NCBI RefSeq assembly: GCF_026343115.1
Contig: NZ_JAPEMC010000001.1
Span: 4,793,501 to 4,857,500, forward strand
Length of the DNA stretch: 64,000 nt
DNA from: Streptomyces sp. NBC_00102
GTDB lineage: Bacteria > Actinomycetota > Actinomycetes > Streptomycetales > Streptomycetaceae
Reading direction: 5' to 3'
Positions 49,293 to 61,528 of this stretch are shown here, one piece after another. The stretch's first letter is position 1. The number at the start of each line of letters is the position of its first letter. The notes under the pieces are model-generated. The model saw only the letters and a list, made by a program, of their open reading frames with translations. It did no database searches and had not been told where the DNA came from. The translations under genes and the position numbers were made by a program.

Positions 49293-51017
49293 ATGCGTCA
49301 ACCGTCCGCCATATCCCGCCGCGTCGCCGCGGCCGTCGTGGTTCTCGTCGTGGGCTCGTCCGTCGCGGCGTGCGGCCCGAAGGAGAGCGGAAGCGACGCC
49401 GGTTCCACCGCCTCCTCCTCCGCTCCCGCCAAGGGCGGCACCCTCAGCGTCCTCAACCGCGCCCCCCAGGTGAACTTCGACCCGGCGCGCCTCTACACCT
49501 CCGGCGGCGGCGCCGTCCCCTCGCTGGTCTTCCGGACCCTCACCACCCGCAACCGCGAGGCGGGAGCCGCCGGTTCCGAGGTCGTTCCCGACCTGGCGAC
49601 CGACCTGGGCACGCCCAGCGAGAACGCCACCGTGTGGACGTACACGCTCAAGGAAGGGCTGAAGTACGAGGACGGCACCGCGATCACCAGCGCGGACGTC
49701 AAGTACGGCATCGAGCGCTCCTTCGCCGCCGAACTCTCCGGCGGCGCGCCCTACCTGCGCGACTGGCTGGTCGGCGGCGCCGACTACGAAGGCCCGTACA
49801 AGGACAAGAAGGGCCTCGCCTCGATCGAGACGCCCGACGACCGGACCATCGTCTTCCACCTGAACAAGCCCGAGGGCGAGTTCCCCTACCTGGCGACGCA
49901 GACCCAGACCACGCCCGTGCCGCAGGCCAAGGACACCGGCGCGACGTACGAGAACCACCCCGTCTCCTCAGGGCCGTACAAGGTCGTCTCCAACGAGGGC
50001 GACGGCGAGCACCTCGTCCTGGAGCGCAACACCTACTGGTCCGAGAAGACCGACTCCGAGCGCAAGGCCTACCCGGACAAGATCGACGTCCGCTCCGGCC
50101 TGGACCCGGCCGTCATCAACCAGAGGCTCTCCGCCTCGCGCGGGGCCGACGCCACCGCCATCACCACCGACACCAACCTCGGCCCGGCCGAACTCGCCAA
50201 GGTCACCGGTGACAAGGCCCTCGCCGCCCGCGTCGGCGAAGGCCACTTCGGCTACACCAACTACATCGCCTTCAACCCGAAGGTGAAGCCGTTCGACAAC
50301 CCGAAGGTGCGCCAGGCGATCTCGTACGCCGTCAACCGCACCTCCGTCATCAACGCGGCCGGCGGCTCCGCTCTCGCCGAACCCGCCACCACCTTCCTGC
50401 CCGAGCAGAAGTCCTTCGGGTACACGGCGTACGACGCCTTCCCCTCCGGCGCCACGGGCGACGCGGCCAAGGCCAAGGAAGTGCTGAAGGAGGCCGGTTA
50501 CCCGAACGGGCTCACCGTCACCCTCACGCACGACAACGAGAAGAACTTCGCCACCAGCCCCGAGGTCGCCACCGCCATCCAGGAGGCCCTGAAGAAGGCC
50601 GGGATCACGGTCGAGCTCAAGGGCCTCGAAGACAACGCCTACTCGGAGACCGCGTACAACGTGAAGACCGAGCCCGGCTTCTTCCTCGCCGGCTGGGGCG
50701 CCGACTGGCCCTCCGGCGGCCCGTTCCTCGCGCCGATCTTCGACGGCCGCCAGATCGTCGAGAACGGCTACAACTTCAACACCGGTCGCCTGGACGACGC
50801 CTCGGTCAACAAGGAGATCGACGAGATCAACGAGCTGACCGATCTCGACGCCGCCGCCGCGCGCTGGGGCGCCCTGGACAAGAAGATCGGCGAGCAGGCG
50901 CTGACCGTGCCGCTCTTCCACCCGGTCTACCAGCGCCTCTACGGCGCCGACGTGAAGAACGTCGTCATCAGCGACTGGACCGGCGTGCTCGACATCGCTC
51001 TGGTCGCGGTCAAGTAA
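49293..51017 (+). CDS. Peptide-type ABC importer substrate-binding lipoprotein (family 5)
   Basis: A 574-residue protein from ATG 49293. The signal peptide ends in a lipobox SVAAC (RRVAAAVVVLVVGSSVAACG), so Cys should be lipidated. Family-5 solute-binding features include GGTLSVLNRAPQVNFDPARL, WTYTLKEGLKYEDGTAITSA with DVKYGIERSF, YNPKVKPF-type FNPKVKPFDNPKVRQAISYA, and a late WGADWPSGGPFLAPIFDGR. It captures oligopeptides, dipeptides or nickel/other small ligands outside the cell. It opens the operon with two permeases and one fused ATPase. A Cys-containing leader peptide upstream hints at a sulfur-linked substrate, but that is inference. Confidence 0.93.
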   Translation: MRQPSAISRRVAAAVVVLVVGSSVAACGPKESGSDAGSTASSSAPAKGGTLSVLNRAPQVNFDPARLYTSGGGAVPSLVFRTLTTRNREAGAAGSEVVPDLATDLGTPSENATVWTYTLKEGLKYEDGTAITSADVKYGIERSFAAELSGGAPYLRDWLVGGADYEGPYKDKKGLASIETPDDRTIVFHLNKPEGEFPYLATQTQTTPVPQAKDTGATYENHPVSSGPYKVVSNEGDGEHLVLERNTYWSEKTDSERKAYPDKIDVRSGLDPAVINQRLSASRGADATAITTDTNLGPAELAKVTGDKALAARVGEGHFGYTNYIAFNPKVKPFDNPKVRQAISYAVNRTSVINAAGGSALAEPATTFLPEQKSFGYTAYDAFPSGATGDAAKAKEVLKEAGYPNGLTVTLTHDNEKNFATSPEVATAIQEALKKAGITVELKGLEDNAYSETAYNVKTEPGFFLAGWGADWPSGGPFLAPIFDGRQIVENGYNFNTGRLDDASVNKEIDEINELTDLDAAAARWGALDKKIGEQALTVPLFHPVYQRLYGADVKNVVISDWTGVLDIALVAVK

Positions 51018-51019
51018 CC

Positions 51020-51997
51020 ATGGCCGAAGCACCGCTGGTCGCGGAGGCGGGGGCCGACACGGCCCCCGCCTCCGGGGCGCTCCCGTTCTGGCACCGGCTC
51101 CGCGCCCGCCGCTCCGCGCTCGTGGCGGCCGTCGTCGTCGCGCTCCTCGTCCTCGTCGCCCTCGCCGCCCCGCTGCTCACGGCGTTCGAAGGCCAGGACC
51201 CCACCACCTTCCACGCCGACCTGGTGGACTCCGCCACCGGCGGCGTCCCCCTCGGCTCCTTCGGCGGCCTCAGCGCCGACCACTGGCTCGGCGTCGAACC
51301 CCTCACCGGCCGCGACCTGTTCGCCCGCGTCGTCTACGGCGCCCGCGTCTCGCTCGGCGTGGCGCTCGCCGCCACCCTGGTCCAGGTCGCCATCGGCCTC
51401 GCCCTCGGCATGGTGGCCGGACTCGGCCACCGCCTCGTCGACCAGCTGATCAGCCGTGCCACCGACATCGTCGTCGCCCTCCCCGTCATGGTCACCGCAC
51501 TCGGGGCGCTCGCCGTGGTCCCCGCGGGCTTCCCCCGCCCCGTGCTGATCGCGGGCATGGTCGGACTCGTCGGCTGGGCGCACCTCTCCAAGGTCGTACG
51601 CGCCCAGACCTTGGCCCTCAAACGGACCGACCACGTCTCCGCCGCCCGGCTCAGCGGCTGGAGCGGCACGCGGATCGCCCGGCGCGAACTGCTGCCCGGC
51701 CTCGCCGCACCCGTCATCACGTACGCCGTGCTGCTCTTCCCCGGCAACATCGTCATGGAGGCCGCGCTGTCCTTCCTCGGCGTCGGCATCAAGCCGCCCA
51801 CCCCGTCCTGGGGACAGATGCTCAGCGACGCCGACACCTGGTACCAGGCCGCACCCACCTACCTGCTCGTCCCCGCCCTGCTCCTCTTCGTCACCGTGCT
51901 GGCGCTGACGGTGCTGGGCGAGGGCGTGCGCAACGCCCTCGACCCCCGGGTCGCCTCGCGGCTGCGGGTCGGCACAGGGAAGGAGTCCGGAGCGTGA
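51020..51997 (+). CDS. ABC importer permease, DppC/OppC type
   Basis: A 325-residue protein from ATG 51020, two bases after the preceding stop. Six membrane helices follow a cytoplasmic lead; the first is SALVAAVVVALLVLVALAAP. The periplasmic loop carries WLGVEPLTGRDLFARVVYGA, typical of DppC. The EAA loop that contacts the ATPase is VSAARLSGWSGTRIARRELLP. It overlaps the next gene by four bases. Together with the DppB-type subunit it forms the channel for substrate delivered by the lipoprotein. Confidence 0.92.
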   Translation: MAEAPLVAEAGADTAPASGALPFWHRLRARRSALVAAVVVALLVLVALAAPLLTAFEGQDPTTFHADLVDSATGGVPLGSFGGLSADHWLGVEPLTGRDLFARVVYGARVSLGVALAATLVQVAIGLALGMVAGLGHRLVDQLISRATDIVVALPVMVTALGALAVVPAGFPRPVLIAGMVGLVGWAHLSKVVRAQTLALKRTDHVSAARLSGWSGTRIARRELLPGLAAPVITYAVLLFPGNIVMEAALSFLGVGIKPPTPSWGQMLSDADTWYQAAPTYLLVPALLLFVTVLALTVLGEGVRNALDPRVASRLRVGTGKESGA

Positions 51998-52983
51998 CCC
52001 GCTTCCTGCTGCGGCGCCTCGGCGGAGCCCTCCTGGTGCTCTTCGCCCTCAGCGTCCTCGTGTACGCCGTCTTCTACGTCGCCCCGGGCGATGTCGCACA
52101 GATCGCCTGCGGACCGCGCTGCTCGCCCGCGCAGGTCGCCCAGGTGACCGCGCAACTCCGGCTCGACGACCCGGTGTACGTGCAGTACGCCCACTTCGTC
52201 CAGTCCCTCTTCACGGGCCACGACTACTCGACCGGCACCGGCACCGAGCACTGCCCGGCGCCCTGCCTCGGCCGTTCCTACCGGGACGACCAGCAGGTCA
52301 TGCAGCTGATCGTCACCAAGCTCCCCGCCACCGCCTCGCTCGCGCTGGGCGCCTTCGCGCTCTGGGTCCTCGTCGGCGTCGGCACCGGACTCCTCTCGGT
52401 CTGGCGGCGCGGCCGGGCGACCGAGCGCATCCTCACCGGAGTGACGCTCGCGGGCATGTCGACGCCCGTCTTCGTGCTCGGCCTGATGATGATCATCGTC
52501 TTCTGCTCGACGCTGCGGATCCTCCCGTTCCCCGTCTACGTCCCGCTGACCGACGACCCCGAGCAGTGGTTCTGGAACCTGCTGCTGCCCTGGGTCTCGC
52601 TGGCGCTCGTCTCCGCCGCCCCGTACGCCCGGATGACCCGTGCGGCGATGCTGGAGACCCTCGCCGAGGACCATGTCCGCACCTTCCGCGCCTACGGGGT
52701 GAGCGAGCGGCGGATCGTCGTCCGGCACGCGCTGCGCGGCGCGCTCGCGCCCCTGATCGCGCTCGGCGCGGTCGACATCGGCGCCATGTTCGGCGGCGCG
52801 GTGCTCACCGAGTCGCTCTTCAACATCCCCGGCGTCGGCCGGGAACTCGTCGACGCCGTACAGACCGTCGATCTCCCCGTCGTCGTCGGACTGGTGCTCG
52901 TCACCGGATTCTTCGTCGTCCTCGCCAACGTCGTCGCGGACATCCTGCACGCGGCGGCCGACCGTCGGGTGGTGCTGTCATGA
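51994..52983 (+). CDS. ABC importer permease, DppB/OppB type
   Basis: A 329-residue protein from GTG 51994 (MTRFLLRRLGGALLVLFALS), overlapping the preceding gene by four bases. DppB features: the N-terminal RRLGGALLVLFALSVLVYAV helix, a long first periplasmic loop with DDPVYVQYAHFVQSLFTG, and the EAA loop EDHVRTFRAYGVSERRIVVR. The last helices include VVVGLVLVTGFFVVLANVVA. The first periplasmic loop has two Cys pairs (CGPRC and CPAPC), unusual for this family. The order C before B is the reverse of most dpp operons. Confidence 0.92.
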   Translation: MTRFLLRRLGGALLVLFALSVLVYAVFYVAPGDVAQIACGPRCSPAQVAQVTAQLRLDDPVYVQYAHFVQSLFTGHDYSTGTGTEHCPAPCLGRSYRDDQQVMQLIVTKLPATASLALGAFALWVLVGVGTGLLSVWRRGRATERILTGVTLAGMSTPVFVLGLMMIIVFCSTLRILPFPVYVPLTDDPEQWFWNLLLPWVSLALVSAAPYARMTRAAMLETLAEDHVRTFRAYGVSERRIVVRHALRGALAPLIALGAVDIGAMFGGAVLTESLFNIPGVGRELVDAVQTVDLPVVVGLVLVTGFFVVLANVVADILHAAADRRVVLS

Positions 52984-54659
52984 GCTTGGTCGAGGTATCC
53001 GGTCTGACCATCGACTTCGGCCCGGTGCGCGCCGTCGACGGCCTCTCCTTCACCCTGGAGAAGGGCGCCGCCCTCGGAGTCGTCGGGGAGTCCGGCTCCG
53101 GCAAGAGCGCCTCCGCCTACGCCCTGCTCGGACTGCACCGGGGGACCGGCGCGGTCGTCGGCGGCTCGGTCACCGTGGCCGGGGTGGACGTGCGGGCCGC
53201 GGACGAGACCGGACTGCGGGCGCTGCGCGGTGCGAAGGCCGCCATGGTGTTCCAGGACCCGCTCTCCTCGCTCGACCCGTACTACGCGGTCGGCGACCAG
53301 ATCGCCGAGGTGTACCGGGTGCACCACCGGGTCTCCCGGCGGGCCGCCCGCGCCCGCGCGGTGGAGGTCCTCGGCCGGGTCGGCATCCCGGACCCGGTAC
53401 GCCGCTCGCGCTCCCGGCCGCACGAGTTCTCCGGCGGCATGCGGCAGCGGGTGCTCATCGCGATGGCGCTGGTCTGCGAACCGGATCTGCTCGTCGCCGA
53501 CGAACCCACCACCGCGCTGGACGTCACGGTGCAGGCGCAGGTCCTCGACCTGCTGCACGAGCTGCGCCGCGAGACGGGCATGGGGCTGGTGCTCGTCACC
53601 CACGACGTAGGGGTCGCCGCGGAGAGCGTGGACGACGTGCTGGTGATGAAGGACGGCCGGGAGGTCGAACACGGCACGGTCGCCGAGGTGCTGGGCGCCC
53701 CCCGGCACGCGTACACCCGCGCCCTGCTCTCCGCCGTACCCCGCGTCGACGCGCCGCGCGAACGACGCGGCCCCGCGACGGAGTCCGCCGGCTCCGGGGC
53801 CGCTTTGTCCGGGGGCGCCGGCTCCGGGGCCGCCGCCGAGGGCGAGCCGCTGCTCGAAGCGGTGGGTCTGCGGTGCGAGTTCGGCCGCGGGCGCGACCGG
53901 GTCACCGCCGTCGACGACGTCTCGCTCACCCTCCGGGCCGGTGAGACGCTCGGCATCGTCGGCGAGAGCGGGAGCGGCAAGACCACCCTCGGCCGCATGC
54001 TGGTGCGGCTCCTCGACCCGACAGGCGGCCGACTCCGTTACGGGGGTACGGAGATCGGCGGGATGCCGCCCAAAGAACTGCGCCCGCACCGGCGCGAACT
54101 CCAGATGATCTTCCAGGACCCGGTCGCCTCCCTCAATCCGAGGCGGTCCGTGGGCGAGTCCGTCGCCGACCCGCTGCGTGCGGCCGGTGAACGCGACGAA
54201 ACCCGCGTCCGGCGCCGGGTGGGCGAACTCCTGGACCGGGTGGGGCTGGACGCGGCCCGGTACGACAGCTACCCGCACGAGTTCAGCGGCGGGCAGTGCC
54301 AACGCGTCGGCATCGCCCGCGCGCTGGCGGCCGAGCCCCGGATCATCGTCTGCGACGAGCCCGTCTCCGCGCTCGACGTCACCACCCAGGCGCAGGTCGT
54401 CGCGCTCCTCGCGGAGCTCCAGAGCGAACTCGGCATCGGGCTCGTCTTCATCGCCCACGACCTCGCCGTGGTCCGGCAGGTCAGCGACCGGGTGGCCGTG
54501 ATGCGCCACGGCCGGATCGTCGAACAGGGTGCCGTCGACGAGGTGTACGGCTCCCCTCGGGACCCGTACACCCGGCAACTCCTGGCGGCCGTGCCCGCCC
54601 TCGATCCGGGGGCGGCGGCTGCCCGGCGGGCGATGCGCGGGGAGCTCGCGGCGGTCTGA
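52980..54659 (+). CDS. ABC importer fused ATPase (DppD-DppF type)
   Basis: A 559-residue protein from ATG 52980, overlapping the permease gene by four bases. Two complete ATPase domains in one chain: domain 1 has Walker A GVVGESGSGKSA, signature FSGGMRQRV and Walker B LLVADEPTTALDV; domain 2 has GIVGESGSGKTT, FSGGQCQRV and IIVCDEPVSALDV. A low-complexity Ala/Gly/Ser linker joins them around 265-285. Fused DppDF ATPases of this type power oligopeptide importers. It completes the transporter, and the next gene is on the same strand after 187 bp. Confidence 0.95.
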   Translation: MSLVEVSGLTIDFGPVRAVDGLSFTLEKGAALGVVGESGSGKSASAYALLGLHRGTGAVVGGSVTVAGVDVRAADETGLRALRGAKAAMVFQDPLSSLDPYYAVGDQIAEVYRVHHRVSRRAARARAVEVLGRVGIPDPVRRSRSRPHEFSGGMRQRVLIAMALVCEPDLLVADEPTTALDVTVQAQVLDLLHELRRETGMGLVLVTHDVGVAAESVDDVLVMKDGREVEHGTVAEVLGAPRHAYTRALLSAVPRVDAPRERRGPATESAGSGAALSGGAGSGAAAEGEPLLEAVGLRCEFGRGRDRVTAVDDVSLTLRAGETLGIVGESGSGKTTLGRMLVRLLDPTGGRLRYGGTEIGGMPPKELRPHRRELQMIFQDPVASLNPRRSVGESVADPLRAAGERDETRVRRRVGELLDRVGLDAARYDSYPHEFSGGQCQRVGIARALAAEPRIIVCDEPVSALDVTTQAQVVALLAELQSELGIGLVFIAHDLAVVRQVSDRVAVMRHGRIVEQGAVDEVYGSPRDPYTRQLLAAVPALDPGAAAARRAMRGELAAV

Positions 54660-54846: not shown

Positions 54847-56814
54847 GTGCGTATCGGCCTGCTCACCGACGGTGGTTATCCGTATGCGGACGGTGAGTCC
54901 AGACTGTGGTGCGACCGCTTGGTACGCGGTCTTCCCCAGCACGAGTTCGACCTCTACGCGCTGAGCCGCTCCGCCCGTCAGGAGAAGCTCGGCTGGGTGA
55001 GCCTGCCGCCCCAGGTCGGCCGGGTACGCACCGCGCCGCTCTGGAACGCACCGCCCGCCCCGCGCCACACCACCGACGGCGGAGTTCCTAGGGACGAGCC
55101 GGGCGGCTGCCTCACCCGCCTCGTGACGGGCAGCGGGGGCGCCTACGGCCGCCGCGAGCGCCGGCGCTTCACGGCGCATCTGACGGCGCTCGCCACGGCG
55201 GTCAGCGCCGCGGGTGCCGGGGCGCCGGTGCCCGCCGCCCGTACCCCGCGCGCGCCGGCGGCCGCCGGTCCGGCGGGCGCCCCGGCCGGCGCCGATCCGG
55301 CCCGGCTCTTCGGCGAAGGGCTCTACGGACTCGCCGAACTCGCCCGGGAACACGGCGGACTGCCCACCGCGCTCCGCTCCGAGACGGCCCTGCGCGTACT
55401 GGAGTCCGCCTGCCTCGCCCGGGGCACCGGCCGCACCGTCCAGCGCGCCACCGTCACCGACCACCTGGCGTTCGCCGGCGAACTCGCCCGTCTGCTGATG
55501 CCGCTCTCGCTCGACTGGTACACCACCGACTCCCTCGGCGGGGTGGACCTCTGCCACGCGGCCTCCGGCGGCACCGCCGCCCTCCCCGGGCTGCTGGCCA
55601 AACGCTTCTTCGGTGTCCCCCTTCTGGTCACCGAGCACGCCCTGCCGCTGCGCACGCACTACCTCTCCGCCACGGACACGCCGTTCGGCGCCCCGGTACG
55701 CGCCCTGCTCGCCAACCTCCACGCGCTCCTGGCCGCCGAGGTCTACCGCCAGGCCTCCGTCGTCACCCCCGGCAACACCCACGTACGCCGCTGGCAGCGA
55801 CGCTGCGGCGCGGACACCGCGAAGCTGCGCACGGTCTACCCGGGCATGGACGCGGGGCGCTTCGCCCAGGTGGGCGAGGACGACAGCGCGGGCCCGGACA
55901 CCCTGGTGTGGGTGGGCCGGGTCGAGCCCGCCAAGGACCTGGTCGCCCTGCTGCACGCCTTCGCCGAGGTGCACCGGGCCGAACCCGGGGCACGGCTGCG
56001 GATCTTCGGCGCCCCCGTCGAGAGTCCCGAGGGCGAGGCGTACCTCGCGCACTGCCGGGCCCTGGCCGAACTGCTCTTTCCCGGGACCACCTCCGACTCC
56101 GCGCGCCGTGACGCGGACGAGCCCGGAACGGTGGAGAGCCCGGTCTCCTTCGAGGAGATCGGCGGGGCGGGCGCGGACGAGCTCGCCGGGGCGTACGCGG
56201 CCGGCGGGATCGTGGTCCTCTCCAGCGTCGTCGAAGGCTTCCCGATCAGCCTGGTGGAAGCGATGTTCTGCGGCCGGGCCACCGTCTCGACGGACGTGGG
56301 CGCGGTGACCGAGGTCATCGGCGGCACCGGGCTGGTGGTCCCGCCGCGCGACACCCCGGCGCTCGCCGACGCCTGCCTCGCGCTGCTGCGCGACCCGGAG
56401 CGCCGTGCGCGCCTGGGCGAGGCGGCACGGGCGCGCGCCCTCGAACTCTTCACCGTGGAGCAGAACCTCGCCGCCTTCCGCGCGCTCTACCGGGAGCTGA
56501 CCGCGGGCCATCCGACGCGCCCGAGGGGCACCGACCCGGTCACCGCTGTGGTCACCGCCCCGGCCGCCGCCCGGCGGGAGACCGGGGGAGCACGGGCCGG
56601 GGGAGGACCGGGCACCCCGGCGCCCCGCCCCTTCGCCGTCCCGCCCGAGGAGTACGTACGCCCCGGCCACCCCCGTACGGCCCCGGCGGAGCGGCGTCCC
56701 GCCGGGGCGGCCTCCGGGCGGACCCCGGCCTGGGCCGTCACGCCCGCCCCCGCACCCGCCCCCGAGAAGGTCGGCGCCGCCGCGACGGCCGGAGCGGGGG
56801 ACGGCGATGCGTGA
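54847..56814 (+). CDS. PelF-like glycosyltransferase (DUF3492 + GT4)
   Basis: GTG 54847 (MRIGLLTDGGYPYADGESRL) behind GGGGGTG; 655 residues. The N-terminal DUF3492 domain starts with LTDGGYPYADGESRLWCDRL and includes LPLRTHYLSATD. The GT4 domain has VWVGRVEPAKDLVALLHAFA, LRIFGAPVES, and VVLSSVVEGFPISLVEAMFC as the nucleotide-sugar EX7E motif, then GAVTEVIGGTGLVVPP. This pairing is that of PelF, the cytosolic transferase that polymerises the Pel polysaccharide from UDP-GalNAc/GalNAc. The C-terminal 100 residues are a disordered Pro/Ala/Arg-rich extension. It overlaps the next gene by eight bases. Confidence 0.85.
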   Translation: MRIGLLTDGGYPYADGESRLWCDRLVRGLPQHEFDLYALSRSARQEKLGWVSLPPQVGRVRTAPLWNAPPAPRHTTDGGVPRDEPGGCLTRLVTGSGGAYGRRERRRFTAHLTALATAVSAAGAGAPVPAARTPRAPAAAGPAGAPAGADPARLFGEGLYGLAELAREHGGLPTALRSETALRVLESACLARGTGRTVQRATVTDHLAFAGELARLLMPLSLDWYTTDSLGGVDLCHAASGGTAALPGLLAKRFFGVPLLVTEHALPLRTHYLSATDTPFGAPVRALLANLHALLAAEVYRQASVVTPGNTHVRRWQRRCGADTAKLRTVYPGMDAGRFAQVGEDDSAGPDTLVWVGRVEPAKDLVALLHAFAEVHRAEPGARLRIFGAPVESPEGEAYLAHCRALAELLFPGTTSDSARRDADEPGTVESPVSFEEIGGAGADELAGAYAAGGIVVLSSVVEGFPISLVEAMFCGRATVSTDVGAVTEVIGGTGLVVPPRDTPALADACLALLRDPERRARLGEAARARALELFTVEQNLAAFRALYRELTAGHPTRPRGTDPVTAVVTAPAAARRETGGARAGGGPGTPAPRPFAVPPEEYVRPGHPRTAPAERRPAGAASGRTPAWAVTPAPAPAPEKVGAAATAGAGDGDA

Positions 56815-58162
56815 CCCCCGCGACCACCTGTCCGCCCCGGGCAACGAACCGTACGGAGGAACCCTCATGGGCCGCGCGCCCGAAGCCCTCGACGTGCCGG
56901 ACGGTCCGTCGCCCGCAGCCGAGCCCCCCGCCCCGGCCACCGGCACCGCGACGGACGCACCGGCGGGAGGCGGGACCGCGGCCGCCCCCGTGGCCACCGT
57001 GGTGGCGACGGCCGAGCCCGACGCCGGCGCCGGCCCCGTTCCCGGCGCGGACGGTGCACAGGCTGCCGCCCCGGCCTCCGACCCCGCCGCCCGCCGCGCG
57101 CCCGCCGACCCCGTGCGTGCCCTGCTGCGGCACCACCGCGAGCTCTGCGAACGCGCCGTCGACCCGCTGGAGATCGCCGCGGGGCTGGAGGCGCACGGCA
57201 TCACCGACCGGGCCGCCGCCCGCTACCGCCACCGGGACGTCTTCTCCCTGGCCGAGGAGCTGTACGCCCGTGTCCCCCGGGCGGCCAACGGTCCGGTGGG
57301 GGCGCCGGCCGAGGGGCGGGCCGCCCACGATCCCGGCCACCGCGCCGCCTGGACCCTGCACGTCCTGCTGCCCGGGGCCGCCTGCCTCGCCGCGGTCGGG
57401 GTGCTCCGGGCGACGGAGGGGGTGCTCGGCACCGGCGCACGGAACGCCCTGACGGCCGCCGGAGCCCTGCTGGTCTTCCTCGCGCTCCGGTCCGCCCTGG
57501 CCACCGGCCCGCTGCGCGCCCCTGCCGGCTCCGGCCGGACCGCCCTCTACACCTGCTGGCTCCTGGGGTACGCGGTGTACGGGGAGGATCTCCTCGCCCT
57601 GGTTCTCGGCGGCGGTGCCGACGGCCACCGGCCGGGCACTCCCGCCCCGCTCCTCGGCCTCTCGCTCGCCGTGGCCCCCGCAGCCTGGTGCGCGCACTTC
57701 TTCGCCGTGCACGCGCGCCGCAAACTGGGCGGCAGCCGGGCGCTGGAGGAGTTCGGCGCGGGGGTGCGGCCGGTGCTGCTGACAGGCGTCGCGCTCTTCC
57801 TGGCCGCCCTCCTGCCGCTCATGCTCCTCGCCGGCCTCGGGTACGGCGGCTACGGCGTACCGCTCTCCGCGTACGCGCTCGGGCTGCTGTTCTTCCTCGC
57901 CCGGCTGGAGACCGCGCACGGCCTGCCCGCCCCCGCCGTCACCGCGCTGGCCGCCGCCTGCGCGGTCGAGGCGGCGGCCCCCGCCCTCCTGCTGGGCGGC
58001 CGGCTGCCCGGCCTCGACCTGCTGGCCCGCCCCGTCGACGTGCTCGTCGCGGCGGGCGGCACCGGCGCCGTGCCCGCCCTGGCCTGCGGCGGAGCCGCCC
58101 TCGCGCTGCTGGCGCACGCAGCCGTCGCGCTCTCCCGCGCCTCCGCCCACCACCGGCACTGA
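56807..58162 (+). CDS. Polytopic membrane protein, possible PelG counterpart
   Basis: A 451-residue protein from ATG 56807 (MRDPRDHLSAPGNEPYGG), overlapping the glycosyltransferase gene by eight bases. The first 160 residues are hydrophilic: a Pro/Ala-rich part, then a helical motif ADPVRALLRHHRELCERAVD. About eight membrane segments follow (for example WTLHVLLPGAACLAAVGVLR, VRPVLLTGVALFLAALLPLM, AVTALAAACAVEAAAPALLL). It has no recognised family. PelG, the membrane partner of PelF in known Pel loci, is a 12-helix protein, so this is only an analogous candidate for glycan export. Confidence 0.7.
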   Translation: MRDPRDHLSAPGNEPYGGTLMGRAPEALDVPDGPSPAAEPPAPATGTATDAPAGGGTAAAPVATVVATAEPDAGAGPVPGADGAQAAAPASDPAARRAPADPVRALLRHHRELCERAVDPLEIAAGLEAHGITDRAAARYRHRDVFSLAEELYARVPRAANGPVGAPAEGRAAHDPGHRAAWTLHVLLPGAACLAAVGVLRATEGVLGTGARNALTAAGALLVFLALRSALATGPLRAPAGSGRTALYTCWLLGYAVYGEDLLALVLGGGADGHRPGTPAPLLGLSLAVAPAAWCAHFFAVHARRKLGGSRALEEFGAGVRPVLLTGVALFLAALLPLMLLAGLGYGGYGVPLSAYALGLLFFLARLETAHGLPAPAVTALAAACAVEAAAPALLLGGRLPGLDLLARPVDVLVAAGGTGAVPALACGGAALALLAHAAVALSRASAHHRH

Positions 58163-58421
58163 CCCGACGCGCACCGGGCGCACCGACCAGAGAACGCGTA
58201 CCGCCCACCGCGCTCACCGACCCGCACGCCGCGACCGACGCGCACCGACCCCCCGCGCGCCCGACCGCGACGGGCACCGCCGCCGGACCCGCACGGGCCG
58301 GCCGACGACCGCACCACTCGCACCGTCCCGCCGCACCGACCCGCATCACCCATCGCCCCGCGGAGCCGACGCCGCGGGCACCCACCCCGTACACACCTCT
58401 CCCACCAAGGAGTTACCGGAC
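58163..58421. other. Low-complexity gap before the small coupling ORF
   Basis: 259 bp, very C-rich, with repeated CACCG/CGCAC runs and no gene, hairpin or promoter that I can support. A good Shine-Dalgarno AAGGAG appears at its 3' end, for the ORF at 58422. Confidence 0.5.
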
Positions 58422-58481
58422 ATGACCCGCCGACCCGCCGCACCGGCCACCCGCCGTCGGCACCCAGGGAGCGCACGATGA
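58422..58481 (+). CDS. Small 19-codon ORF coupled to the epimerase gene
   Basis: ATG 58422 follows AAGGAG by nine bases. The frame MTRRPAAPATRRRHPGSAR stops with TGA at 58479-58481, overlapping the epimerase ATG at 58478 in the form ATGA. It is Arg/Pro/Ala-rich. Its main role may be to bring ribosomes to the epimerase start, or to sense translation. A chance frame cannot be excluded. Confidence 0.4.
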   Translation: MTRRPAAPATRRRHPGSAR

Positions 58482-59443
58482 GGGTTCTGCTGCTCGGCGC
58501 CAACGGATTCCTCGGCCGCTTCGTCGCGGACCGCCTGCTGGCCGATCCGGCCGTCCACCTCACGGCCCTGGGCCGGGGCGACGACGCCGACGTACGGTTC
58601 GACCTCGCGGGCGGCAGCCCCGGGGCGCTCACCCGCTTCCTGGACGCCGTCCACCCCGGGGTCGTCGTCAACTGCGCGGGGGCCACCCGGGGCCAGGCCC
58701 GCGAGCTGACCCGGCACAACACCGTCGCCGTCGCCACCGTCTGCGAGGCACTGCGCCGCAGCGGCTGCGGGGCACGGCTCGTCCAGGTCGGCTGCGCCTC
58801 GGAGTACGGGCCCTCGCAGCCCGGGTCCTCCACCGCCGAGGACGCCGTACCGCGCCCCGGCGGCCCGTACGGCGTCAGCAAGCTCGCCGCGACCGAACTC
58901 GTCCTCGGCTCCGGGCTCGACGCTGTCGTGCTGCGGGTCTTCTCGCCGGTCGGCCCCGGCACTCCGGCCGGCTCCCCGCTCGGCCGGCTCGCCGAGGCGA
59001 TGCGCCGCGCGATGCAGTCCGGCGACGGAGAGCTGAAGCTCAGCGGCCTCGGGGTCCAGCGCGACTTCGTGGACGTACGGGACGTGGCGCGGGCGGTGCA
59101 CGCCGCCTCGCTCTCCGCCGCCCAGGGCGTCGTCAACATCGGTACCGGCCGGGCCGTCAGGCTGCGCGACGCCGCGGCCGTCCTCGCCCGGGTCTCCGGG
59201 TTCGCCGGTGTGCTGCACGAGCTGGAGATGCCGCCCGGACGTATCCCGATCGGCGCCCAGCGCACCTCCGCGGAGTCGGTCATGGAACACCTCGCGGCCA
59301 CCCCGTCGCCCTACCCGGACGGCTGCGGTGCCTGGCAGCAGGCCGATGTGCGTACCGCCCGCGACCGACTGGGCTGGCGCCCCCGGATCAACTTGGAGGA
59401 GTCCCTGGCCGATATCTGGATGGAGGCGGCGTGCCGCATCTGA
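58478..59443 (+). CDS. NAD-dependent sugar-nucleotide epimerase/dehydratase
   Basis: A 321-residue short-chain extended SDR from ATG 58478. GANGFLGRFVADRLL gives the GxxGxxG NAD(P) site, VVNCAG the next loop, and YGVSKLAATELV the catalytic Tyr-x-x-x-Lys, with SEYG in the serine position region. LRVFSPVGPG and RDFVDVRDVARAVHAA are typical of UDP-hexose epimerases (GalE/WbpP-type). A UDP-GlcNAc/UDP-GalNAc or UDP-Glc/UDP-Gal 4-epimerase would supply the precursor for the adjacent PelF-like transferase. The gene overlaps the spherulin gene by 13 bases. Confidence 0.85.
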   Translation: MRVLLLGANGFLGRFVADRLLADPAVHLTALGRGDDADVRFDLAGGSPGALTRFLDAVHPGVVVNCAGATRGQARELTRHNTVAVATVCEALRRSGCGARLVQVGCASEYGPSQPGSSTAEDAVPRPGGPYGVSKLAATELVLGSGLDAVVLRVFSPVGPGTPAGSPLGRLAEAMRRAMQSGDGELKLSGLGVQRDFVDVRDVARAVHAASLSAAQGVVNIGTGRAVRLRDAAAVLARVSGFAGVLHELEMPPGRIPIGAQRTSAESVMEHLAATPSPYPDGCGAWQQADVRTARDRLGWRPRINLEESLADIWMEAACRI

Positions 59444-60264
59444 CCGGCACGGGAACGGCCCGCCGGACGAGCGGGGACGAGCAGATGGGCTTCGGTGTGC
59501 CGGGATACGCTCATCCGCTGCTCGCACCCACCGAGTGGGCGGAACTCACCCGCCCCGGCACGCCGTTGCACTGGGCGGTGCTCAACATCGCGGACGGGCC
59601 GGGCACCCGGCCCGACCCGCACTGCCTGGAAGCCGCCGGAAAGCTGCACAGCGCCCGGGAGCGTGCCCTGCGGGGGTGCGCTCCCGGCGCCGCCGCCCCG
59701 GGCGGCCGGCTGCTCGGACACCTCGATCTGGTGCACGGCGCACGGCCGTTCGGCGATCTGGTCGTCGACGCCCAGCGGTTCCTGGACTGGTACCGGGTCG
59801 GCGGCTTCTACCTCGGCCGCTGCCCCACCGAGCGGGCCGGCCTCCCGGCTGTCCGCCGGCTCACCGTCACCCTGCGCGAACTCGTCGCGCAGAGCGAGGC
59901 CGTCCGGGGCGGGCCGGACGGGGACGGCGGACGGATCGTGCTGGGGCTCGGCACCCACCCGTACCCCGGCTACGCCGAAGCAGCCGACCAACTCGTCACC
60001 TTCCGGGGGTCCTGGCCCGACTACCGCTGGTCGCAGGTGGCGCAGTGGACCGCGGAGTACCCGCCCGAACGGTTCGCGCACTTCGTCCACGGGGTCCCCC
60101 GCACCCACCTGGACGAGGCCATGCGCATCGCCCGCTGGCAGGGAGCCGGCACGATCTTCTTCACCGACCGGGACGGCCGCAACCGGCAAACCGACCCATT
60201 CGCGGCACTGCCCGGTTACTGGGACGAAATCGTCTCGCGGATCGGACCGGGTATCTCGGAATGA
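59431..60264 (+). CDS. Spherulin-4-like (GH135-type) glycoside hydrolase
   Basis: GTG 59431 with GGAGG just upstream, overlapping the epimerase by 13 bases; 277 residues. ATG 59485 is an alternative. The domain begins MGFGVPGYAHPLLAPTEWAE and runs WAVLNIADGPGTRPDP, GHLDLVHGARPFGDLVVDAQ, and ends WQGAGTIFFTDRDG. This is the spherulin-4 TIM-barrel family; fungal Sph3 (GH135) of this type cuts galactosaminogalactan, an alpha-1,4-linked GalNAc polymer related to Pel. No signal peptide is visible, so it acts inside or is exported another way. Presence beside PelF and an epimerase supports a glycan role. Confidence 0.75.
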   Translation: MPHLTGTGTARRTSGDEQMGFGVPGYAHPLLAPTEWAELTRPGTPLHWAVLNIADGPGTRPDPHCLEAAGKLHSARERALRGCAPGAAAPGGRLLGHLDLVHGARPFGDLVVDAQRFLDWYRVGGFYLGRCPTERAGLPAVRRLTVTLRELVAQSEAVRGGPDGDGGRIVLGLGTHPYPGYAEAADQLVTFRGSWPDYRWSQVAQWTAEYPPERFAHFVHGVPRTHLDEAMRIARWQGAGTIFFTDRDGRNRQTDPFAALPGYWDEIVSRIGPGISE

Positions 60265-60349: not shown

Positions 60350-61528
60350 GTGTCGCTGCCACCCTTGGTCGAGCCGGCTGCCGAGCTCACCGTCGATGAG
60401 GTCCGCAGGTACTCCCGCCACCTGATCATCCCGGATGTCGGGATGGACGGACAGAAGCGGCTGAAGAACGCGAAGGTGCTCTGTGTGGGCGCGGGCGGCC
60501 TCGGCTCGCCCGCCCTGATGTACCTCGCCGCCGCCGGTGTCGGCACGCTCGGCATCGTGGAGTTCGACGAGGTCGACGAGTCGAACCTGCAGCGCCAGAT
60601 CATCCACAGCCAGGCCGACATCGGCCGCTCCAAGGCCCAGTCGGCCAAGGACTCGGTGCTGGGCATCAACCCGTACGTGAACGTGATCCTGCACGAAGAG
60701 CGGCTCGAAGCCGAGAACGTGATGGAGATCTTCGCCCAGTACGACCTGATCGTGGACGGCACGGACAACTTCGCCACCCGCTATCTCGTCAACGACGCGG
60801 CCGTACTGCTGAACAAGCCGTACGTCTGGGGCTCCATCTACCGGTTCGACGGACAGGCGTCCGTCTTCTGGTCGGAGCACGGTCCCTGCTACCGCTGCCT
60901 CTACCCGGAGCCGCCCCCGCCGGGCATGGTTCCCTCCTGCGCCGAGGGCGGGGTGCTGGGCGTGCTCTGCGCGTCCGTCGGCTCCATCCAGGTCACCGAG
61001 GCCATCAAGCTGCTCGCCGGAGTCGGCGACCCGCTCGTCGGCCGGCTGATGATCTACGACGCGCTGGAGATGCAGTACCGCCAGGTCAAGGTCCGCAAGG
61101 ACCCCGACTGCGCGGTCTGCGGCGAGAACCCCACCGTCACCGAGCTCATCGACTACGAGGCCTTCTGCGGCGTCGTGTCCGAGGAGGCGCAGGAGGCGGC
61201 GCTCGGCTCCACGATCACTCCCAAGCAGCTCAAGGAGTGGATCGACGCCGACGAGAAGATCGAGATCATCGACGTCCGCGAGCCGAACGAGTACGAGATC
61301 GTCTCGATCCCGGGCGCCAAGCTGATCCCGAAGAACGAGTTCCTGATGGGCAACGCCCTCCAGGACCTGCCGCAGGACAAGCGCATCGTCCTGCACTGCA
61401 AGACCGGTGTCCGCAGCGCCGAGGTCCTCGCGGTCCTCAAGTCGGCGGGCTTCGCCGACGCGGTGCACGTGGGCGGCGGCGTCATCGGCTGGGTCAACCA
61501 GATCGAGCCGTCGAAGCCGGTCTACTAG
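60350..61528 (+). CDS. moeZ: Adenylyltransferase/sulfurtransferase MoeZ
   Basis: A 392-residue protein from GTG 60350, with GAGG upstream. The N-terminal E1-like domain shows YSRHLIIPDVGMDGQKRLKN, the nucleotide motif GAGGLGSPALMYLAAAGVG, RQIIHSQADIG, and two Cys pairs for zinc (CYRC and CAVC). The C-terminal rhodanese domain has IEIIDVREPNEYEI and the active-site C350 in HCKTGVRSAEV. MoeZ activates ThiS/MoaD-like sulfur carriers for thiamine, molybdopterin, cysteine or thio-natural products. It is the Rv3206c counterpart, here displaced from DUF3152 by the ABC importer and the glycan cluster. Confidence 0.95.
   Translation: MSLPPLVEPAAELTVDEVRRYSRHLIIPDVGMDGQKRLKNAKVLCVGAGGLGSPALMYLAAAGVGTLGIVEFDEVDESNLQRQIIHSQADIGRSKAQSAKDSVLGINPYVNVILHEERLEAENVMEIFAQYDLIVDGTDNFATRYLVNDAAVLLNKPYVWGSIYRFDGQASVFWSEHGPCYRCLYPEPPPPGMVPSCAEGGVLGVLCASVGSIQVTEAIKLLAGVGDPLVGRLMIYDALEMQYRQVKVRKDPDCAVCGENPTVTELIDYEAFCGVVSEEAQEAALGSTITPKQLKEWIDADEKIEIIDVREPNEYEIVSIPGAKLIPKNEFLMGNALQDLPQDKRIVLHCKTGVRSAEVLAVLKSAGFADAVHVGGGVIGWVNQIEPSKPVY

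Follow-up and report, generated by a model that had tools for sequence, protein, structure and literature searches.

A moeZ-linked gene set in Streptomyces, fairly likely to be a stripped and re-tooled relative of galactosaminogalactan/Pel-type clusters

In fungi, the galactosaminogalactan cluster consists of uge3, gtb3, agd3, ega3 and sph3, and actinobacterial full clusters that include an Agd3 homologue, a cytoplasmic glycosyltransferase, a multi-spanning membrane protein and a GH114 protein, some of them with a spherulin-4 protein, are already on record (sections of Bamford et al. 2020, PMC7229062). A further described system is the Gram-positive pelDEADAFG operon (sections of Whitfield et al. 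2020, PMC7112168). Four genes that partly resemble these systems are found in a 64-kb stretch of DNA from Streptomyces sp. NBC_00102, the whole of which is referred to here as the window. The host genome is 8.6 Mb, and its closest named relatives are Streptomyces. The four open reading frames (ORFs), designated GT, MEM, EPI and SPH, all lie on the + strand and are flanked by a peptide-type ABC transporter and by moeZ. It is fairly likely that this set is a stripped, re-tooled descendant of a galactosaminogalactan/Pel-type cluster, probably with a new function instead of formation of that polymer. The features are as follows.

54847..56814, + strand: GT, a DUF3492-GT4 glycosyltransferase of PelF type (Pfam/NCBIfam and residue scoring)
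56807..58162, probable start 56867, + strand: MEM, a predicted truncated exporter remnant of the MOP superfamily (model and homologues)
58422..58481, + strand: coupling (leader) ORF of 19 codons with an AAGGAG Shine-Dalgarno sequence (conservation of position and frame)
58478..59443, + strand: EPI, an extended short-chain dehydrogenase/reductase, SDR (PF01370)
59431..60264, + strand: SPH, a Spherulin4/GH135-derived protein (homologues with PF12138)
60350..61528, + strand: moeZ, encoding a MoeZ adenylyltransferase/sulfurtransferase (NCBIfam NF005902, 756 bits, cut-off 647)

Coordinates and strand of the four ORFs had been given correctly in a preliminary description of the window, made from the sequence alone. 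MoeZ is encoded by a flanking housekeeping gene, which serves as a synteny anchor and lies outside the glycan set.

The Agd3-containing operons (PMC7229062) are matched by a second locus in the same genome, which has the Agd3 homologue, the cytoplasmic glycosyltransferase, the multi-spanning membrane protein, GH114 and spherulin-4. In contrast, the window locus is without Agd3 and GH114, its membrane protein appears truncated, its GH135 relative is without the acid/base residue, and it is linked to moeZ. The sections consulted mention no reduced form of this kind and leave the fold of the membrane protein unnamed. The pairing of an Agd3/CE18 deacetylase with GH114 is absent from the window, whereas the full cluster has the GH114 protein and an Agd3_CE match just under the cut-off. 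Likeness to pelDEADAFG (PMC7112168, in part) extends to a PelF-type transferase, a MOP-fold membrane protein and an epimerase nearby, but the genome gives no match to PF16933 (PelG), the window includes no deacetylase homologue, and a GH135 protein replaces the PelA-type hydrolase. As for the fungal cluster, GT and the GH135 protein correspond to it, and in the full locus the Agd3- and GH114-type genes do so as well; the bacterial loci differ in having the transferase and the exporter as separate genes and in other sugar-nucleotide genes, and the window copy in being stripped and catalytically altered. No description of the moeZ-linked re-tooled form was found in open-access full text.

The second locus, L137 on contig C2 (G000:C2:694873-704691; L137:1374-11192), is a complete polymer-type cluster. 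It encodes an Agd3-like deacetylase (PF25115, Agd3_CE, 24.2 bits, slightly below the cut-off of 27.6), a transferase scoring 177.9 bits and thus above the PelF cut-off, a membrane protein of 485 residues, a LegB-like dehydratase (449 bits, cut-off 475), a nucleotidyltransferase, an EPI homologue 42% identical to EPI, a Spherulin4 protein (122.8 bits) and a GH114 protein (282.7 bits). The presence of the LegB-like dehydratase and the nucleotidyltransferase suggests a polymer containing a 6-deoxy-amino sugar. In 13 further loci of the paralogue type (L144-L156), the GT, MEM and SPH genes are always found, the deacetylase, dehydratase, nucleotidyltransferase and EPI genes in 12 of 13 each, and GH114 in nine. 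Counted by eye, about 44 of the 81 genus genomes have SPH paralogues of the full-locus type. Within the window's genus, the full cluster was read out for the fetched loci L137, L139 and L144-L150, using a simple home-made gene caller that left some genes uncalled in L138, L162 and L165. When the deacetylase, dehydratase, nucleotidyltransferase and GH114 proteins of the paralogous cluster were used as queries, no homologue was detected in the 64-kb window at E 0.01 (PelD and PelE were not searched for), and likewise none in 60 related loci at E 1e-10.

In another genus of the family, a complete cluster (L174) precedes moeZ and is separated from it by a single unrelated gene on the opposite strand. 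In the gene trees of GT, EPI and SPH, the L174 copy branches as sister to the moeZ-linked copies as a whole (support 1.0, 0.70 and 0.91, respectively); the trees comprised 94 GT, 96 EPI and 99 SPH rows, with one gappy GT row excluded and L173 contributing no GT. Because this complete cluster stands beside moeZ and takes the sister position in three gene trees, the window set would be a stripped descendant, and the simplest history is that a complete cluster, without changing place, lost its deacetylase, dehydratase, nucleotidyltransferase and GH114 genes. The Pel/galactosaminogalactan-type ancestry proposed earlier is supported by the type of transferase, GH135 descent, co-occurrence of the genes and the complete cluster in the same genome.

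Of the 81 genus genomes, 75 gave a strong SPH match (E <=1e-69), that of the window among them, and 60 loci were fetched out of these 75. In all 60, EPI, SPH and moeZ are consecutive and GT lies upstream, with MEM in 58. The order GT-MEM-EPI-SPH-moeZ was found in 44 of 49 named Streptomyces loci, which may overlap in genomes with the first set; the remaining five show partial order, some of them at contig ends. Outside the genus but within the family, 20 loci were fetched, and 16 of them also show the whole order. At class level, EPI orthologues (E 1e-60) were detected in 16 of 197 genomes, every one of the window's genus. The cluster is therefore real and close to genus-wide in Streptomyces, and the co-occurrence of the four genes that the preliminary description had asked to be surveyed was confirmed in the 60 fetched and 49 named loci. 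Chance assembly of the genes is ruled out by synteny, and a local novelty by the wide distribution of the moeZ-linked set in the family. The SPH matches in five genomes of other families, at most 38% identical to the window SPH, were not taken as orthologues; four of these were kept as loci (L115, L117-L119). By eye, L141, L142 and L119 (the same place as L138) adjoin Agd3- or GH114-like genes.

GT has a DUF3492 domain (PF11997, 84.5 bits, cut-off 23.3) and a GT4 domain (Pfam), and its best NCBIfam model is PelF (NF038011, 92.5 bits, under the cut-off of 100). The earlier assignment to the DUF3492-GT4, PelF-type transferases is thus borne out. Arg358, Lys363, Glu463 and Glu471, corresponding to the EX7E, Arg and Lys donor-site residues that we take to be key residues of PelF, are retained. 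Residues were counted in 61 Streptomyces moeZ-linked copies (window included), 16-19 copies from sister genera and 16-19 from full clusters, with gaps cutting some GT alignment columns to 55 scorable copies of the 61. The two donor-site Glu residues are kept in 56 and 60 of the 61 Streptomyces transferases, and Arg and Lys in 55 each. Signatures of the acceptor lobe are altered in the window, where the GGV loop has become G-E-S and RER has become R-T-H, the second Arg now being His271. That Arg is present in 18/18 full-cluster transferases versus 1/61 Streptomyces moeZ-linked copies, the second Gly of the GGV loop in 18/18 versus 0/55 scorable copies, and the His of EHG in 18/18 versus 12/61, though the window GT does have this His. 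A dead transferase was considered and dropped, as the donor-site residues are intact. In one database protein (P0139), the first ~80 residues of GT are fused to MEM, as would result from an in-frame deletion of the body of GT.

EPI is an extended SDR (PF01370, Pfam). Its nearest solved structures are GDP-6-deoxy-4-hexulose reductases (PDB 2pk3 and 6x3b, best E 1.4e-20), with which it shares SDR motifs including the RDF..DVRD region, and its description as an epimerase supplying UDP-GalNAc is therefore unsupported. Unlike these reductases, EPI has Cys106 (58793-58795) at the position of the catalytic Ser, and the full-cluster dehydratase was not found in the window. Tyr131, Lys135 and GxxGxxG are present, and the Ser/Thr-Tyr-Lys triad of extended SDRs thus reads Cys-Tyr-Lys. 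The triad position is Ser in 16/16 full-cluster copies versus Cys in 61/61 Streptomyces and 17/19 sister-genus copies, with Tyr and Lys kept in all 61; Cys was also found in 47 of 48 named loci, the remaining one being unscorable. It could be argued that EPI is an ordinary sugar-nucleotide enzyme of general metabolism, either a 4-epimerase or a 4-keto-6-deoxyhexose reductase with Cys for Ser, and that GT and MEM are only loosely associated with it. This would agree with the nearest solved structure and with the persistence of EPI without GT, MEM or SPH in some genomes, but the locus is without the cognate dehydratase and nucleotidyltransferase, and GT and MEM accompany EPI in 58/60 fetched Streptomyces loci, and we consider this explanation improbable.

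The window SPH alone gave no match in Pfam or in a PDB sequence search. However, among the 1232 homologues found, the 120 that were listed carry PF12138 (Spherulin4), and a profile of 14 SPH-family proteins, including that of the window, aligns to Sph3 (5c5g/5d6t) with E ~1e-28. The preliminary description had named a spherulin-4-type glycosidase, and GH135 descent was confirmed through these homologues and this profile, but the GH135 catalytic residues, whose absence it had itself set beforehand as speaking against the proposal, are both replaced, by Gly129 (59815-59817) at the nucleophile position and Arg192 (60004-60006) at the acid/base position. The acid/base Glu occurs in 19/19 full-cluster copies, 0/61 Streptomyces moeZ-linked copies and 1/19 sister-genus copies, and is lacking in 46/46 of the named set. 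The nucleophile Asp occurs in 19/19 full-cluster and 17/19 sister-genus copies, and in 21/46 of the named set. PF12138 labels in this genus therefore often mark proteins without GH135 catalytic residues. The catalytic pair of Sph3 is given as Asp196/Glu222 (part of PMC12054363 consulted). In the 14-member profile alignment, the Asp of Sph3 lies 56 residues before the Glu, which would place it at 166, and the printed Asp196 may be a slip. By eye, SPH has no visible signal peptide, and the canonical-looking GH135 proteins of full clusters (L139, L141, L144 and L174) are likewise without an obvious one. The latter may act inside the cell. Secretion was thus discarded as a distinction between the window and full-locus copies, which are alike in this respect.

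As stated in the preliminary description, MEM is an eight-helix membrane protein of no known family: no Pfam or NCBIfam family was matched, and its AlphaFold2 model includes 8 long transmembrane helices. A PDB sequence search with MEM returned nothing meaningful. A MEM relative of the full-length type has the MOP fold with 12 helices, of which the window MEM is short of four, and in its model MEM does not show the 12-helix MOP fold. A conserved N-terminal helical motif, LEIAAGLEAHG, starts at residue 121. PelG is a member of the MOP superfamily. PF16933, the PelG family unmatched in the genome of the window, gave only partial matches (positions ~321-445) in 9 of 41 Streptomyces genomes, above the cut-off in 2. 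Judged from the models, MEM is a predicted descendant of a divergent MOP-fold exporter, cut from 12 helices to 8, and the membrane protein of actinobacterial Agd3-type operons is identified as a MOP-fold protein and the likely counterpart of PelG. The notion of a new membrane protein in place of PelG can thus be kept in the sense of a divergent counterpart, but not in that of a new fold, which the MOP fold of the full-type relative rules out. A second in-frame ATG of MEM at 56867 has a strong Shine-Dalgarno sequence and suits the full-length homologues better than 56807. The overlaps reported for the set (8 and 13 bases) and its gap of 315 bp were counted correctly, but because of this better start, the 8-base overlap between GT and MEM is uncertain.

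These findings bear on whether the four genes are a working, compact Pel/galactosaminogalactan-like system, with GT as the polymerase, the eight-helix protein as the exporter, EPI as the source of the precursor, and SPH binding the product or trimming it. In favour of such a system are the homologues of all four genes in the complete polymer cluster, the intact donor site of GT and the strongly conserved gene order. It is nevertheless unlikely, given that the GH135 acid/base is missing from every Streptomyces copy, that the exporter is four helices short, that deacetylase, GH114, dehydratase and nucleotidyltransferase were found neither in the window nor in the 60 loci, and that SPH has been deleted repeatedly while the other genes were retained. 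Synthesis, export and trimming of an alpha-1,4 amino-sugar polymer have probably ceased to be the function of the set. The proposal that the window locus makes and trims a Pel-like polymer, which the loss of the SPH acid/base, the 8 of 12 exporter helices, the four genes missing from the window and the Cys of EPI all oppose, fits the paralogous full locus much better.

The gap upstream of EPI does contain the coupling ORF that had been claimed for it (58422-58481), and its stop overlaps the start of EPI in the sequence ATGA. A comparable ORF, 12-51 codons long and equipped with a Shine-Dalgarno sequence, is found at this place in 59 of 61 Streptomyces loci (window included), as compared with 1/61 and 0/61 for the other two frames, and in 45 of the 47 scored loci of the named set, for which a slightly wider Shine-Dalgarno pattern was used. 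Within Streptomyces, position and frame are conserved and the peptide sequence is variable. Because the peptide varies, translation of the leader ORF rather than its product is probably under selection. In the full clusters read, EPI follows the nucleotidyltransferase, the end of which often has a similar GGGAGC element, and the leader ORF may be what remains of a nucleotidyltransferase-EPI coupling.

Copies from sister genera point to an order of change. In L174, every ancestral residue is present. In L169, the Ser of EPI and the Glu of SPH are retained, with MEM already short and GT already changed. In L173, EPI has Ser but Phe instead of Tyr, SPH has Asp instead of Glu, and no GT or MEM was found. 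L185-L187 have the Ser in EPI, and SPH was not found there. All other scored copies have Cys in EPI and an SPH without Glu, and the EPI and SPH changes co-occur in this sample. This suggests, for the few loci concerned, that exporter truncation and the acceptor-lobe change in GT came first, and that Ser to Cys in EPI and loss of the SPH acid/base followed.

The genomes without a strong SPH match were in part queried with tblastn. In 11 of the 14 queried genomes that lack an intact moeZ-type SPH, EPI is still directly before moeZ (58-89% identical); three of the 11 keep SPH stubs, and one (L183) is also without GT. Short SPH stubs lie between EPI and moeZ in L177, L178 and L184, and these are probably independent deletions of SPH. 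No moeZ match was obtained in G001, a genome that is 79% complete. Median pairwise ratios of nonsynonymous to synonymous substitution (dN/dS) are 0.136 for EPI, 0.140 for MoeZ, 0.386 for GT, 0.386 for SPH and 0.637 for MEM, and in the eight closest pairs the EPI ratio is ~0.01-0.06. EPI is thus the most constrained gene of the set, evolving as slowly as MoeZ. In the full clusters, EPI is 54-68% identical to the L137 copy versus 79-90% for the dehydratase (12 paralogue-type loci). As EPI is one of the more variable genes in full clusters and slow-evolving where linked to moeZ, constraint appears to have moved onto it, and its persistence after loss of SPH, of SPH plus GT, or of GT plus MEM likewise indicates a shift of selection.

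A decaying pseudogene island, kept merely by its place beside moeZ, would account for the motif losses, the truncations and the SPH remnants. It would also account for two genomes that weigh against the re-tooled descendant favoured here: in G010 (L188) the cluster has decayed to pieces of GT, MEM and EPI, with moeZ intact and a diverged SPH recognisable, and in G373 (L189) no cluster was found beside moeZ. However, EPI is under constraint as strong as that of MoeZ in close pairs (dN/dS 0.003/0.298, 0.007/0.28 and 0.009/0.216), all 61 Streptomyces copies have its Cys, Tyr and Lys, and the leader ORF is kept in 59/61, making decay very improbable. Other observations to be set against the re-tooled descendant are that the SPH nucleophile Asp is retained in 44 of the 61 Streptomyces copies, that the Cys of EPI is missing in L169, L173 and L185-L187, and that, among the 16 moeZ-linked sister-genus loci scored, no more than 4 have the leader ORF. 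The ATGA is present in those sister-genus loci even so, the second codon of EPI contributing to it.

If the set is a re-tooled descendant, EPI would be its working core, either as an SDR with a Cys-Tyr-Lys site that is catalytically active or binds a ligand, or as a nucleotide-sensing protein. The donor-competent GT would glycosylate another acceptor, probably one that is membrane-bound or inside the cell; the MEM remnant would be its membrane partner or anchor, and SPH a dispensable, catalytically dead sugar-binding partner. The leader ORF would couple translation of EPI to ribosomes coming from upstream, and the product would probably serve the hyphal envelope in development. In S. coelicolor, SCO5174, SCO5175 and SCO5177 are up by 2.2-3.8 log2 units in the second mycelium (PMC3610822, in part), and SCO5174 mutants produce less actinorhodin, although other mutations may be responsible in roughly one in four mutants of this kind from the screen (sections of PMC6585502). 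SCO5178 has been named moeB, a putative sulfurylase (PMC4340878, in part). These data would fit a developmental role if SCO5174-SCO5177, the putative counterparts, are indeed these genes. A more specific version can be offered only tentatively: the operon would have been converted nearly genus-wide into a leader-coupled Cys-Tyr-Lys SDR device, carrying out a new reaction or acting as a redox- or NAD(P)-responsive switch, which together with the donor-competent GT and a half-deleted MOP exporter at the membrane would control envelope glycosylation or development.

On the favoured reading, a complete exopolysaccharide cluster would be seen dismantled and re-used, with intermediates still present in sister genera, and a set whose members carry database labels ranging from hypothetical and spherulation-specific to phage tail proteins in most Streptomyces becomes a testable question, namely the role of the Cys-type SDR. 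Upstream of the set, positions 49293-54659 encode an oligopeptide-type ABC transporter (binding protein, two permeases and a fused ATPase), which is common but not universal among the loci.

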